A program made the translations under genes and the position numbers. A stretch of DNA of 64,000 nt from contig NZ_CP141590.1 in NCBI RefSeq assembly GCF_035581365.1, positions 1,488,001-1,552,000 of the forward strand, read 5' to 3'. This DNA comes from Tsuneonella sp. CC-YZS046 (GTDB lineage Bacteria > Pseudomonadota > Alphaproteobacteria > Sphingomonadales > Sphingomonadaceae). Positions 24,961 through 34,784 of the stretch are shown piece after piece. The notes below the pieces were generated by a model, which was given only the letters and a program-made list of their open reading frames with translations, was not told the DNA's origin and searched no databases. Numbering within the stretch: position 1 is the first letter of the stretch; the number at the start of each line of letters is the position of its first letter.

Positions 24961-27267
24961 ATGCAGGATGAAACACCCCCCCTCGCCGCATCCGGAGCAG
25001 CGGCAGAGCCGCCTTACCTGGCAGGCCTGAATCCGTCGCAGCGTGAAGCGGTGCTGGCCACCGAAGGCCCGGTGCTGATGCTGGCCGGCGCGGGCACGGG
25101 GAAAACCGCCGCGCTCACCACCCGTCTCGCCCACCTCGTCCACAGCCGCCTCGCCTGGCCCAGCGAGATCCTGTGCGTCACCTTCACCAACAAGGCGGCG
25201 CGGGAAATGCGCGAACGGGTGGGCCAGCTGATCGGCCCGGCGGTCGAGGGGATGCCCTGGCTGGGCACGTTCCATTCGATCGCGGCGAAGATGCTGCGCC
25301 GCCATGCGGAGCTGGCCGGGCTGCAATCCAACTACACCATCATCGACACGGACGATCAGCTTCGCCTGCTGAAGCAGCTCATCACCGCCAACGATCTGGA
25401 CGAGAAGCGCTGGCCCGCGCGCCAGCTGGCCGGGCTGATCGACCGCTGGAAGAATCGCGGCATCAACCCGGAAGACCTGGATGCGGTGGAGAACGAAGCC
25501 TATGCCAATGGGCGCGGCCAGCAATTCTACCGGCTCTACCAGGACCGGCTGAAAGCGCTGAACGCCTGCGATTTCGGCGACCTGCTGCTGCACATGCTCA
25601 ATATCCTGCGGCGCGAACGCGACGTGCTGGAGCATTACCGCCAGCGTTTCAAATATATCATGGTGGACGAATATCAGGACACCAACGCCGTCCAGTATCT
25701 CTGGCTGCGCCTGCTGGCGCAGGAACGGAAGAACATCTGCGTGGTGGGGGACGACGACCAGTCGATCTACAGCTGGCGGGGCGCGGAGGTCGCCAACATC
25801 CTGCGGTTCGAAAAGGATTTCCCCGGCGCGAAGATCATCCGGCTGGAACAGAATTATCGCTCCACCCCCCACATCCTGGCGGCCGCGTCGGGCCTTATCA
25901 GCGCGAACAGCCAGCGGCTCGGCAAGACCTTGTGGACCGAGCGGAACGGCGGGGACAAGGTTCAGGTCATCGGAGTGTGGGACGCGCCGGAGGAAGCCCG
26001 CCGGGTGGGCGAGGAGATCGAGCGGCTGGAGCGCGAAGGCGCGCCGCTCGACCGGATCGCGATCCTCGTCCGCGCCCAATACCAGACGCGCGAATTCGAG
26101 GACCGCTTCATCCAGATCGGCCTCAACTACCGGATCGTCGGCGGCTTCCGTTTCTATGAGCGGGCGGAAATCCGGGATGCGCTGGCCTACCTCAGGGTGA
26201 TCGCCCAGCCCAGCGACGACCTCGCCTTCGAGCGGATCTACAACCAGCCCAAGCGCGGGCTTGGCGCGAAGGCGCTGGAGGCGATGCATCGCCATGCCCG
26301 GGCGCGCGGAATGCCGCTGGCGGCGGGCGCGCTCGAACTCGCCCAGACCGACGAATTGCCCAAACGCGCGAGCGGAGCGATCGCGGCGCTGATGCGCGAT
26401 TTCCTGCGATGGCGCGAAATGGCGGATGGCGTCTCCCCCGCCGAGCTGCTGCGCACGGTGCTGGAGGAATCCGGCTACAACGCCATGCTGCAGGCGGAAC
26501 GGAGCGCCGAAGCCGCCGGACGGGCGGAGAACCTCTCGGAACTGGCCCGCGCCATGGAGGATTACGCCACGCTGGGCGATTTCCTGGAGCATGTCGCGCT
26601 GGTGATGGACAATGACGCCGCCGCCGATGACGAAAAGGTCACGATCATGACCATCCATGCGGCGAAGGGGCTGGAGTTCGATCATGTCTTCCTGCCCGGC
26701 TGGGAGGAAGGCGTGTTCCCCAGCCAGCGCGCGCTGGACGAAGGCGGCCTGGCCAGCCTGGAGGAGGAACGCCGCCTCGCCTATGTCGCGATCACCCGCG
26801 CCAGGCGGCGCTGCACCATTCTCCATGCCGCCAACCGCCGCATCTACGGGCAATGGACCAGCTCGATCCCCTCGCGCTTCGTGGAGGAGCTTCCCGACGA
26901 TCATGTCGAGCGCGAAACCACCCTCACCGGCGGCGCCTCGCTGTGGCGGGCGAGCTGGTCGGAACATGACGATCCCTTCGCCAATGTCGCGCGCAGCCAG
27001 CCTGCGCGCAGCGCCACGCGCGGGCCGGGCTGGCAGCGCGCCGCATCGGCCGGATACGACGCCACGCCCAAGCGGCTGGCGGAGCCGGGCCGCAGCGCGG
27101 CGAGCTTCGCCGCCAAGCCGCGCATGGACATCAGGAAGGGCGACAGGGTGTTCCACGAGAAGTTCGGCTATGGCGAGGTTCTGGCGCAGGAAGGCAACAA
27201 GCTGGAGATCGAGTTCGAGGGCAGCGGCCGCAAGCGGGTTCTCGACAGCTTCGTGAAGCCGGCCTGA
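24961..27267 (+). CDS. uvrD: UvrD/PcrA-type superfamily I DNA helicase
   Basis: 768-aa ATP-dependent 3'-5' helicase for repair and replication restart. Walker A GAGTGKT ends at Lys48-Thr49, the Q motif is NPSQREAV, motif Ia region is TFTNKAAREMRERV, motif II is VDEYQDTN, then GDDDQSIYSWRGA and QNYRS, with helicase motifs IV-VI (TIHAAKGLEFDHVF, VAITRARR). The C-terminal 45 residues form a Tudor-like fold (GDRVFHEKFGYGEV) seen in UvrD/PcrA and used for RNA polymerase contact. The label UvrD versus PcrA is a naming matter. Confidence 0.95.
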   Translation: MQDETPPLAASGAAAEPPYLAGLNPSQREAVLATEGPVLMLAGAGTGKTAALTTRLAHLVHSRLAWPSEILCVTFTNKAAREMRERVGQLIGPAVEGMPWLGTFHSIAAKMLRRHAELAGLQSNYTIIDTDDQLRLLKQLITANDLDEKRWPARQLAGLIDRWKNRGINPEDLDAVENEAYANGRGQQFYRLYQDRLKALNACDFGDLLLHMLNILRRERDVLEHYRQRFKYIMVDEYQDTNAVQYLWLRLLAQERKNICVVGDDDQSIYSWRGAEVANILRFEKDFPGAKIIRLEQNYRSTPHILAAASGLISANSQRLGKTLWTERNGGDKVQVIGVWDAPEEARRVGEEIERLEREGAPLDRIAILVRAQYQTREFEDRFIQIGLNYRIVGGFRFYERAEIRDALAYLRVIAQPSDDLAFERIYNQPKRGLGAKALEAMHRHARARGMPLAAGALELAQTDELPKRASGAIAALMRDFLRWREMADGVSPAELLRTVLEESGYNAMLQAERSAEAAGRAENLSELARAMEDYATLGDFLEHVALVMDNDAAADDEKVTIMTIHAAKGLEFDHVFLPGWEEGVFPSQRALDEGGLASLEEERRLAYVAITRARRRCTILHAANRRIYGQWTSSIPSRFVEELPDDHVERETTLTGGASLWRASWSEHDDPFANVARSQPARSATRGPGWQRAASAGYDATPKRLAEPGRSAASFAAKPRMDIRKGDRVFHEKFGYGEVLAQEGNKLEIEFEGSGRKRVLDSFVKPA

Positions 27268-27317
27268 TCCCCTCTCCTACTTGCCGCTTGCGCTTGGCCC
27301 GCAGCCCGGCTAAGCGC

Positions 27318-27435
27318 GCGCCGTCATCTGGGGAGTAGCCAGCCGCTCGATCGAGCGGGCTCCCGCATCAACATGCTTGGCCGAGAGGCCATGGTGCGGG
27401 AGGAGCGGGTCACCGTTCGGGCGAGACCAATGGCA
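27318..27435 (+). ncRNA. yybP-ykoY (Mn2+) riboswitch
   Basis: Leader upstream of the GDT1 transporter gene matching the yybP-ykoY class. Conserved 5' block GGGGAGTAGCC at 27330-27340; P2 hairpin CCGCTC-GATC-GAGCGG; a second stem CCCGCA...TGCGGG whose 5' loop has TCAACATGC; a tetraloop hairpin GGCC-GAGA-GGCC; and the conserved 3' block GGGCGAGACC ending at 27428. In the known class the two helical arms bind Mn2+ and Mg2+. Downstream, GGGCCGGG (27450-27457) is complementary to CCCGGCCC (27491-27498), directly before the GGAG ribosome site, a possible translational switch. Edges are approximate. Confidence 0.9.
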
Positions 27436-27511
27436 TTGCGCTTCCGTTCGGGCCGGGCGGGACGCGCGATGTCGTTCGTCTTGTCGATTTCCCGGCCCCG
27501 GAGACTTTTTC

Positions 27512-28090
27512 ATGGAAGCCTTTCTCACGTCGACAGCGGTCGTCGCGCTCGCGGAAATCGGCGACAAGACGCAGCTGCTGGCGATCGTGCTCGCGACCCG
27601 CTTCAAACGCCCGCTTCCCATCATCCTCGGCATTCTGGCGGCAACGCTGGGCAATCACTTCCTGGCGGCGCTGGTCGGGGGGATGGTCGCGAACATCCTC
27701 GACGGGCAATGGTTCCGCTATGCGGTCGCGATCTCCTTCATCCTGATGGCGGGATGGACGCTGATTCCCGACAAGTTCGAGGAGGAAGGGCAGCAGGTGG
27801 GGCGCTTCGGCGCCTTCCTCACCACGCTGATCGCCTTCTTCCTGGTGGAGATGGGCGACAAGACCCAGATCGCCACCGTGGCCCTTGGCGCGCAATTCCA
27901 GGCGGTGGGCTGGGTCACGATGGGAACGACGCTGGGCATGATGCTGGCCAATGTGCCCGCGGTGTTCCTGGGCAATGAACTGATCAAGCGCGTGCCGCTC
28001 AGGACGGTGCGGATCATCGCCGCGCTGCTGTTCCTGGCCATCGGCATCTGGCTGCTGGCGCAGACGGCCGGATTGTTCACAACCCGCTGA
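27512..28090 (+). CDS. TMEM165/GDT1 family transporter (UPF0016), probable Mn2+ exporter
   Basis: 192-aa membrane protein with six helices in two repeats, each carrying the family motif E-x-G-D-K-T (AEIGDKTQ near residue 15 and VEMGDKTQ near 114). Relatives include Mn2+ exporters such as MneA and eukaryotic Golgi Mn2+/Ca2+ transporters. The Mn2+ riboswitch upstream supports manganese efflux here. ATG at 27512 has GGAG at 27500-27503; the frame extends upstream only through the riboswitch and is non-coding there. Confidence 0.93.
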   Translation: MEAFLTSTAVVALAEIGDKTQLLAIVLATRFKRPLPIILGILAATLGNHFLAALVGGMVANILDGQWFRYAVAISFILMAGWTLIPDKFEEEGQQVGRFGAFLTTLIAFFLVEMGDKTQIATVALGAQFQAVGWVTMGTTLGMMLANVPAVFLGNELIKRVPLRTVRIIAALLFLAIGIWLLAQTAGLFTTR

Positions 28091-28166
28091 CTGAGGGGTG
28101 ATCGAACCGAGGGGGACGGCACGCCCATGCCACGCCAAGCAAGGCGGCATGGGTGCGGGCCGGGGG

Positions 28167-28342
28167 TTTCCTACAAGCCTGCGAACTGCCATGGAAACGA
28201 CGGCTTGTCCCCCGGCTCTTTCCCAGCGTTGTATTCACCGCAAGGCGCGGCAATGGCGGCATTGCGCGCGCCCGATCCGGCCTCGATCCGAGGCTGAGGT
28301 TTTTTCGCTATAACAGTGTCAACCCTGTCACCCCCCCCCCCC
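28167..28342 (+). repeat. Dispersed intergenic repeat, copy B
   Basis: Fills most of the 301-bp gap between the GDT1 gene and the convergent helicase gene. TTTCCTACA at 28167-28175, end block AACAGTGTCAACCCTGTCA at 28312-28330, then a run of 12 C. Same orientation as copies A and C. The central part is only weakly similar to the other copies. Nothing else is visible in this gap except the tandem repeat that follows. Confidence 0.7.
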
Positions 28343-28362
28343 GGCGGAGAAAGGACGCGCCG

Positions 28363-28398
28363 GGTTCAGACCCCAGGTTCAGACCCCAGGTTCAGACC
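28363..28398. repeat. 13-bp tandem repeat spanning the helicase stop codon
   Basis: GGTTCAGACCCCA occurs at 28363-28375, again at 28376-28388, and partially (GGTTCAGACC) at 28389-28398. The third unit contains the helicase stop (28392-28394), so the coding end lies inside a repeat array that adjoins dispersed repeat copy B. Confidence 0.9.
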
Positions 28399-29726
28399 AA
28401 GGCGGAGATGTTGAGAAAACCGGGCACCGGGCCATTCCAGCCGGCCGGTTCCGATCCGCCTGCTGCATCGTCCGGCTCGGCTTCAGCGGCGGCCTTGCGC
28501 TGCCGTCCGCCCGAAGGCTGGCGCTCGGGGCGCTTGCCCTTCTCGCTGCGGCGGGGTTTGTCCCTTGCCGCCGGTCTGGAGGATTGCGCGGGTTCCTCGG
28601 CGACTTCCGGCTCCCCGGCCGTGAAGAGCGGGATTTGCATCCCGGTCAGCTTCTCGACATTGGCGATGGCCTCGGCGTCTTCCTCGGCCACGAAGGTAAA
28701 GGCCCGCCCGGTTGCGCCCGCCCGGCCCGTCCGTCCGATGCGATGGACGTAATCGTCGGGATGCCAGGGCGTATCGAAGTTGAAGACGTGGCTCACGCCC
28801 TTGATGTCCAGCCCGCGCGCGGCGACATCGCTGGCGCAGAGGATATTGATCTCGCCGTCCTTGAACCGCCGCAGCTCCGCCAGGCGGGCCGGCTGGTCCA
28901 TGTCCCCGTGGATTTCGCCCACCGCGAAGCCGTGGCGCTTGAGGCTCTTGGCCAGCTCCCGCACCGTCGTCTTGCGATTGGCGAAGACGATCGCGGTGTT
29001 GACATCGTCCGTGCGCAACAGGTGGCGAAGCAATTCGCGCTTCTTGCGGGGCGAGACCATCACCTTGTGCTGGGCGATATTGATGTTGGCGCTCGCCGGG
29101 CGGGCGACCTCGATCGACTTGGGATTGGTCAGGAAGCGATCCGCCAGCTTCTTGATCGGCGCCGGCATCGTCGCCGAGAACAGCAGCGTCTGGCGATTGG
29201 ACGGCAGCTTGGTGCAGATATGCTCGATATCCGGAATGAAGCCCATGTCGAGCATCCGGTCCGCTTCGTCGATCACCAGCAGATCGCATCCCGTGAGGAG
29301 AATCTTCCCCCGCTCGAACAGATCCATCAGCCGCCCGGGGGTGGCGATCAGCACGTCCACGCCCTCGTTCAGCGCCTTGACCTGATCGCCCATCTGCACC
29401 CCGCCGATCAGCAGGGCCATCCGCAGATCGTGGTTGGTGCCGTATTTCTCGAAATTCTCGGCGACCTGGGCGGCAAGCTCCCGGGTCGGCTCGAGGATCA
29501 GCGAACGCGGCATCAGCGCGCGGCGGCGGCCATGGGCAAGGATGTCGATCATCGGCAGAACGAAGCTGGCTGTCTTGCCCGTGCCCGTCTGGGCGATGCC
29601 GATGATGTCCTTCATCATCAGCACGTTCGGGATCGCCTGCGCCTGTATCGGCGTAGGCGTGTCATAGCCGGCTGCCTGCACAGCCTGCAGCAATTCATTG
29701 GAAAGGCCGAGATCGGCAAACTTCAT
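28392..29726 (-). CDS. DEAD-box ATP-dependent RNA helicase (RhlE-like)
   Basis: 444-aa RNA helicase. N-terminal FADLGLSNELLQAV, Q motif TPTPIQAQAIP, Walker A AQTGTGKT, PTRELA, DEAD in IDEADRMLD, SAT, then HRIGRTGRAG. The C-terminal 75 residues are low-complexity, basic and Ala/Glu/Pro-rich, as in RhlE-type cold or ribosome-assembly helicases. ATG at 29726 is preferred to the upstream 29828 start because the domain begins there. Its stop lies in a 13-bp tandem repeat. Confidence 0.93.
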   Translation of the reverse strand: MKFADLGLSNELLQAVQAAGYDTPTPIQAQAIPNVLMMKDIIGIAQTGTGKTASFVLPMIDILAHGRRRALMPRSLILEPTRELAAQVAENFEKYGTNHDLRMALLIGGVQMGDQVKALNEGVDVLIATPGRLMDLFERGKILLTGCDLLVIDEADRMLDMGFIPDIEHICTKLPSNRQTLLFSATMPAPIKKLADRFLTNPKSIEVARPASANINIAQHKVMVSPRKKRELLRHLLRTDDVNTAIVFANRKTTVRELAKSLKRHGFAVGEIHGDMDQPARLAELRRFKDGEINILCASDVAARGLDIKGVSHVFNFDTPWHPDDYVHRIGRTGRAGATGRAFTFVAEEDAEAIANVEKLTGMQIPLFTAGEPEVAEEPAQSSRPAARDKPRRSEKGKRPERQPSGGRQRKAAAEAEPDDAAGGSEPAGWNGPVPGFLNISALV

Positions 29727-29879
29727 AGGCGTGGCATTTTCCGGATAGGGCGGCCGCCAGTCACAGCAGCGGCCCGGTTGCCGCGAAGCCGAAAGGCCAT
29801 CGCGAAGGCAGCCGCGCCATTTGCTCAACCGGCGGCAAAAGTCAAGAAAAGCCGCGTGGCGGCCTGATGCCGGCTCCGC

Positions 29880-34709: not shown

Positions 34710-34784
34710 GGGCGTATAGCTCAGTGGTAGAGCACTGTGTTGACATCGCAGGGGTCGGAAGTTCAATCCTTCCTACGCCCACCA
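34710..34784 (+). tRNA. tRNA-Val (anticodon GAC)
   Basis: Full cloverleaf: acceptor GGGCGTA paired with TACGCCC, D-arm GCTC-GAGC, anticodon stem CTGTG/CGCAG with loop TTGACAT (anticodon GAC, decoding GTC/GTT), T-arm GGAAG/CTTCC with TTCAATC, discriminator A and encoded CCA at 34782-34784. The anticodon stem has one G-T pair. Stands alone, convergent with the bkd operon. Confidence 0.97.

Follow-up and report, generated by a model that had tools for sequence, protein, structure and literature searches.

Several described leaders of the yybP-ykoY class bear on the locus analyzed here. In L. lactis yoaB, the switch helix that closes the aptamer (P1.1) and a downstream helix vie for one strand, and Mn2+ is described as stabilizing P1.1, preventing the competing terminator (PMC11087558). 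The leader of E. coli mntP is reported as a Mn2+-ON switch, wherein the ribosome site is inaccessible without Mn2+ (PMC11647493). In Vibrio, the exporter gene mneA (UPF0016) lies under a yybP-ykoY riboswitch, and induction by Mn2+ is reported for both V. cholerae (PMC7380456) and V. parahaemolyticus (PMC13274385). Furthermore, 328 of 333 screened strains that carry a UPF0016 gene have it under a yybP-ykoY riboswitch, by the count given in PMC7380456, a review. The pH-responsive element of E. coli alx is an RF00080-type leader in which alternative hairpins expose or hide the ribosome site, in a model that is said to rest on polymerase pausing (PMC3874183).

The locus lies in a window of 64,000 nucleotides (the whole stretch of DNA that was analyzed), where positions 27317-27491 quite probably constitute a Mn2+-sensing riboswitch that controls a GDT1-family Mn2+ exporter. 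This judgement covers the preferred explanation as a whole, namely the ligand, which we infer, the sign of the response, the competition between P1, which closes the aptamer, and S1, an alternative helix, and the placement of a further helix, S2, at the ribosome site. A yybP-ykoY riboswitch ahead of a UPF0016 gene is an expected, already published pairing, and the aptamer is an ordinary member of its class; the novelty sits in the S1/S2 arrangement of the platform. Similar to L. lactis yoaB, an aptamer-closing helix and a downstream helix contend for the same strand. The competitor in yoaB is an intrinsic terminator, whereas in the window no terminator was recognized, a competing hairpin followed by a U-run (the L. 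lactis type of platform) was not found, and the extra helix S2 stands against the ribosome site. The resemblance to Vibrio mneA concerns gene and riboswitch. In alx, by contrast with the window, the downstream hairpins as read here do not resemble the S1/S2 arrangement.

The aptamer, the transporter gene and the reading frame of the leader

The covariance model RF00080 (Manganese, yybP-ykoY) matches 27317-27491 on the forward strand; the 51.6 bits of this match (E 8.3e-11) exceed the gathering cut-off of 45 bits. The first-pass annotation had assigned the leader to this class and had suggested a covariance search with the yybP-ykoY model as a check; the assignment passed that check. It had also read both conserved blocks in order, together with a TCAACATGC loop, and this reading stands: the class blocks GGGGAGUAG and GAGACC, which flank the helices, are present at the two block positions in Table 1, and the loop lies inside a hairpin at 27360-27402. 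This is the single RF00080 match in the 3.35-Mb, single-contig genome, and the one other gathering-level Rfam match within the window is a tRNA (tRNA-Val, anticodon GAC, 34710-34784). RF00080 was found in at least 17 of 59 genomes in a search of relatives and in at least 166 of 397 in a search of the family, with the source genome counted each time; filtering was stricter here, and the counts are lower bounds. In the RF00080 consensus as printed, the first ~25 positions are unpaired, and the 3' half of the window leader is matched with low posterior probabilities.

The gene behind the riboswitch contains two stretches that match PF01169 (GDT1), with 148.6 bits in all against a cut-off of 27. 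The two E-x-G-D-K-T motifs pointed out earlier can be read in the protein as EIGDKT and EMGDKT (in AEIGDKTQ and VEMGDKTQ, of the E-x-G-D-(K/R)-(S/T) type). The product is probably a Mn2+ exporter, an assumption carried over from V. cholerae MneA. The genome holds one GDT1 gene (two domain matches), the one behind the riboswitch. Among named genomes, its nearest GDT1 relatives come from Sphingomonas and Novosphingobium and are up to 79% identical to it. The riboswitch and gene are flanked by genes for a UvrD-type helicase (24961-27267, forward strand) and a DEAD-box helicase (28392-29828, reverse strand). Past the GDT1 gene there is a terminator-like hairpin with a T-run at 28278-28296, where shuffled sequences lead one to expect ~0.9 such sites. 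Where the GDT1 gene and the DEAD-box helicase gene converge, the interval separating them holds, at 28363-28398, 2.8 perfect copies of GGTTCAGACCCCA, and the two-copy unit has no further occurrence in the genome at one mismatch or fewer.

Upstream of the aptamer, 32 of 58 sphingomonadal leaders have a TTG that starts 42 bases ahead of GGGGAGTAG, and 26 of the 58 have a CTA that starts 20 bases ahead of it; the window holds both promoter-like elements at the conserved places (27288 and 27310). Together these resemble a conserved promoter, from which the RNA would begin shortly upstream of P1. A scan with the sigma-70 consensus detected no promoter. The frame of the window leader is open from a stop at 27311 to the gene start, with a TTG-started open reading frame of 237 aa beginning at 27377, which might suggest an N-terminal extension of the transporter. 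Such an extension has next to no chance of being correct, as it is already contradicted by an in-frame stop that 66 of 97 leaders have downstream of the GGGGAGTAG block and ahead of the gene start, by the RF00080 score above cut-off and by the covarying RNA helices described below. Because of these in-frame stops the leader is considered non-coding, in agreement with what had been claimed for it despite its open frame. The frame that runs into the leader (27377-28090) could mislead automatic start calling.

Table 1. Features of the riboswitch, its platform and the gene behind it, in positions of the window
Feature	Position	Strand	Basis or remark
Probable promoter (CTTGCGC 27287-27293, CTAAG 27310-27314)	27287-27314	+	positional conservation
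RF00080 match, aptamer and part of platform	27317-27491	+	51.6 bits
P1 5' strand (GTCATCTGG)	27323-27331	+	pairs with 27427-27434, one bulged base
Conserved aptamer block GGGGAGTAGCC	27330-27340	+	read directly
Conserved aptamer block GGGCGAGACC	27419-27428	+	read directly
P1 3' strand, common to S1a	27427-27434	+	lower S1 cognate test z -6.3, -7.8
S1a, 5' strand of anti-P1 helix S1	27429-27440	+	S1 paired in 646/736 cells
S2a, 5' strand of S2 (GGGCCGGG)	27450-27457	+	S2 core z -7.9, -7.3
S1b, 3' strand of S1, resembles P1 5' strand	27465-27476	+	covariation
Linker between S1b and S2b	27477-27490	+	only mildly U-rich in homologs
S2b, 3' strand of S2 (CCCGGCCC)	27491-27498	+	covariation
Probable Shine-Dalgarno (SD) GGAGA	27500-27504	+	8 bases upstream of ATG 27512
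GDT1/UPF0016 gene (192 aa), probably encoding a Mn2+ exporter	27512-28090	+	PF01169, 148.6 bits

Covariation of two platform helices

The platform was probed using leaders of GDT1 genes drawn from 128 loci, 7 of which are without a GDT1 match. The strings of the conserved aptamer blocks were used for selecting homologous leaders, giving 97 distinct leaders with GGGGAGTAG and AGACC suitably placed. Two of these (L074 and L118), in which the alignment started at the wrong AGACC, were excluded, leaving 95 in two groups. The sphingomonadal group of 62 comprises the window, relatives of the same family and L011, which belongs to a different family within the order; the remaining 33 leaders come from alpha-, beta- and gamma-proteobacteria outside this group. 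The alignment (MAFFT) was based on sequence and was not fitted to S1 or S2; some sphingomonadal members are near-identical (e.g. L024 and L125), and relatedness is uncorrected in the statistics. In the cognate test, duplex energies of strands from the same leader were compared with those of strands swapped between leaders, over 2000 permutations. Five control pairings in the two groups gave z from -2.2 to +2.5, so values near -2 are to be ignored.

It had previously been inferred that 27450 pairs with 27491 near the GGAG ribosome site. This helix, S2 (GGGCCGGG with CCCGGCCC), stops one base short of GGAG, and the cognate test bears the pairing out, with z of -7.9 (62 leaders) and -7.3 (33 leaders) for its core. 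Standard pairs fill 432 of 457 cells in the 62 leaders (246 and 306 when slid by one column) and 583 of 674 in the 95 (348 and 408 when slid), and both sides have changed in 7 of 8 pairs across the 95 leaders (3 and 4 when slid). All pairs of the 8-bp helix form in 58 of the 62 sphingomonadal leaders and in 29 of the 33 others; the corresponding values for strand-exchanged pairs are 79% and 34%.

The earlier description of a plausible expression platform consequently stands as regards S2, a helix conserved by covariation, but was incomplete, as a second covarying helix had been missed. This helix, S1 (27429-27440 with 27465-27476), reuses the 3' strand of P1 and interleaves with S2. The cognate test gives z of -6.3 (62 leaders) and -7.8 (33 leaders) for its lower part and -14.7 and -9.8, respectively, for its upper part; for lower S1, upper S1 and the S2 core alike, the observed value was reached by 0 of 2000 permutations. 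S1 has standard pairs in 646 of 736 cells in the 62 leaders (211 and 258 when slid by one column) and in 869 of 1119 in the 95 (350 and 445). Both-side changes occur in 11 of 12 pairs across the 95 leaders, compared with 9 and 9 when slid, a count that discriminates poorly for S1, whereas the paired fraction discriminates well. The leaders have a common order of P1 3' strand/S1a, S2a, S1b, linker, S2b, ribosome site and start. Judged by their covariation, S1 and S2 are real, conserved helices, which turns a plausible platform into a specific, testable architecture.

Results for P1 itself differ between the groups. P1 pairs in the window, and its cognate test gives z of -3.3 in the 33 leaders; in the 62 leaders, where the strands are nearly invariant, it is not significant (z -1.1), and this was counted against the preferred explanation. 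The printed structure line of RF00080, besides its unpaired first ~25 positions, has no pairs in the interval enclosed by the two arms of a long-range stem, such that P1, S1 and S2 are all absent from it; it could be improved by adding the three helices.

Other pairings around the ribosome site were considered and rejected. A local ribosome-site hairpin, in which the linker or S2b pairs with the SD, shows no cognate excess as an OFF element, six tests giving z between +0.3 and +2.0; the region from linker to start is less stable than 60 mononucleotide shuffles (mean z +1.1 in the 62 leaders and +1.0 in the 33), which also argues against such a hairpin. Because this region folds less stably than its shuffles, the ribosome site looks open unless S2 forms. 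An anti-SD:SD extension of S2 is unsupported as a selected feature in the sphingomonadal set (z -0.1, +0.3 and -0.4) and gives mixed results in the 33 other leaders (z -3.4, -2.1 and -1.2), and the z of -2.0 and -0.4 obtained for the inner extension of S2 were not taken as support. The idea that selection maintains an extension of S1 that captures S2a and competes with S2 was rejected. A wide segment gave z of -3.1 and -5.8, but there was overlap with the S1 strand; z was +1.6 and -0.4 for narrower segments, while L1 against the S2a core gave +0.5 and +2.5. The nested minimum free energy structure uses pairs between the S1 extension and S2a in 35 of 95 leaders, window included. Pairing of the SD with the coding sequence shows no excess (z +1.9 and +1.1).

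Sign and step of the regulation

In the preferred explanation, P1 and S1 would compete for the strand 27427-27434, and binding of Mn2+ would stabilize P1 at the expense of S1, as in studied members of the class. Mn2+ should favor P1 over S1 because S1 occupies the place of the competitor in L. lactis. S1 would enclose S2a, and S2b would end one base before the ribosome site, giving a platform of pseudoknot order in which S2 may hinder ribosome binding; S2 is likely the OFF element. More Mn2+ would then lead to more exporter synthesis, as class and gene suggest. The Mn2+-ON sign is taken from class and gene rather than from an energy model because the nested model also shows little change for E. 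coli mntP (5.0 and 4.6 kcal/mol), despite mntP being a known ON switch.

The energetics of the ribosome site were probed using both nested folding and a crude treatment of the pseudoknot. With nested folding of the 97 leaders, the median cost of opening the SD is 4.5 kcal/mol in the P1 context and 4.3 kcal/mol in the S1 context; where the two contexts differ by over 1 kcal/mol, P1 is the more closed in 28 of 97 leaders and S1 in 16 of 97. Opening of the ribosome site upon P1 formation is not shown by nested folding of these leaders, a result that counts against the preferred explanation. Pseudoknot penalties of 7, 9.6 and 12 kcal/mol were tried on the 93 of 95 leaders that passed filters for geometry and these energies. 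At all three penalties S2 stays closed alongside P1 in every one of the 93 leaders; alongside S1 it does so in 93, 91 and 59 of 93, respectively. Of the two contexts, that of P1 is the more closed in 52 to 87 of 93 leaders. Simple energetics would thus make Mn2+ neutral or closing.

These rough models favor a reverse switch, wherein Mn2+ favors P1, S2 shuts the ribosome site and expression falls. This alternative is quite improbable, however, as the gene looks like that of an exporter, the tested class members in the cited work (PMC7380456, PMC13274385, PMC11647493, PMC11087558, PMC8546581) are all Mn2+-ON, and the nested model misses the opening of E. coli mntP as well. The puzzle is that a conserved helix beside the ribosome site appears closed in both states by simple energetics in a switch that is expected to turn on.

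A serious rival has the same class and sign as the preferred explanation and differs in the step that is regulated. Here S1, formed without Mn2+, would halt RNA polymerase within the linker or past it (intrinsically or with Rho), while P1, formed with Mn2+, would block S1 and allow transcription to continue, S2 being a separate helix beside the ribosome site. Such attenuation is consistent with the overlap of S1 with the P1 3' strand, as seen for the L. lactis terminator (PMC11087558), and with the report that Rho also acts on E. coli mntP (PMC11647493). A class member in B. pertussis is reported to yield an RNA of ~200 nt without Mn2+, its mRNA being raised by Mn2+ (PMC8546581), a parallel of response in which the gene is a calcium:cation antiporter rather than GDT1. 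Additionally, the linker is somewhat U-rich, with 0.32 and 0.34 U compared with 0.21 and 0.22 in the platform. Against this, the terminator scan found none in the leader, the sole terminator-like site in 27100-28450 lying past the gene, and V. parahaemolyticus RNA-seq is described as having no coverage drop at the mneA riboswitch (PMC13274385). Attenuation would also assign no role to the conserved S2, which is transcribed only beyond the supposed stop. Weighing both sides, attenuation seems possible but rather unlikely.

Pseudoknot order and occurrence of the platform

S1 and the S2 core are arranged as S1a-S2a-S1b-S2b, have no nucleotides in common and both appear to be under selection. This is the order of an H-type pseudoknot, one in which co-formation and alternation of the helices are not distinguishable by covariation. 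With the S2 core fixed, the median length of S1 is 17 bp in 62 leaders and 16 bp in 31, and the median loops are 4 and 5 nt for L1, 1 and 0 for L2 (small in part since the S1 search stops at S2a) and 11 and 9 for L3. Given an S1 of 16-17 bp, the linker L3 would be nearly stretched if both helices stand together. Coupling of arm lengths is a weak test of the pseudoknot here (r 0.27 and -0.18). An interleaved or pseudoknotted yybP-ykoY platform is not described in the titles or abstract openings searched, a statement about those texts and not a claim of absence from print.

The arrangement may extend beyond GDT1 genes. Read by eye, E. coli mntP also has arms ordered S1a-S2a-S1b-S2b before the SD; unlike the window, its gene is MntP rather than GDT1, the S1 loop is ~60 nt and the linker ~3 nt, with the arms assigned by eye only. 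Seven RF00080 loci in the sample are without GDT1, of which one (L019) is a weak partial match of 24.6 bits. The six others, from the same family, precede genes of the Na/Ca-exchanger type (PF01699; L015, L101, L103 and L109) or MntP (PF02659; L120 and L123). An S2-like run of 7 or 8 pairs, from mid-platform to within the 30 nt that precede the start, is present in five of these six (not L123), counted with no shuffle control; examples are GGGGUCGG with CCGACCCC in L101 and GGGAUCGG with CCGAUCCC in L109. An S1-like run of 7 pairs, joining the 3' strand of P1 to the position that S1b would occupy, is likewise present in five (not L015), again with no shuffle control.

The S1/S2 architecture seems common to Mn2+ riboswitches of alpha-, beta- and gamma-proteobacteria. 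A broader proposal, offered tentatively and with more doubt than confidence, is that the Mn2+ riboswitches of Proteobacteria before GDT1, Na/Ca-exchanger-type and MntP genes, which are exporter families unrelated to one another, share a pseudoknotted platform, in which a Mn2+-free knot of S1 and S2 would jam the ribosome site, and P1, once stabilized by Mn2+, would strip the lower part of S1, loosening the knot and freeing the site.

Exact GGGGAGTAG does not occur within 260 nt of the start in 20 of 80 GDT1 loci. Filtering on the exact string loses variants, as L059, L070, L081 and L090 are still platform- or block-like. Among the 20 loci (L029, L043, L049, L064, L085 and others), the upstream DNA of some is quite different, and these may be under another kind of regulation; others carry variants of the block.
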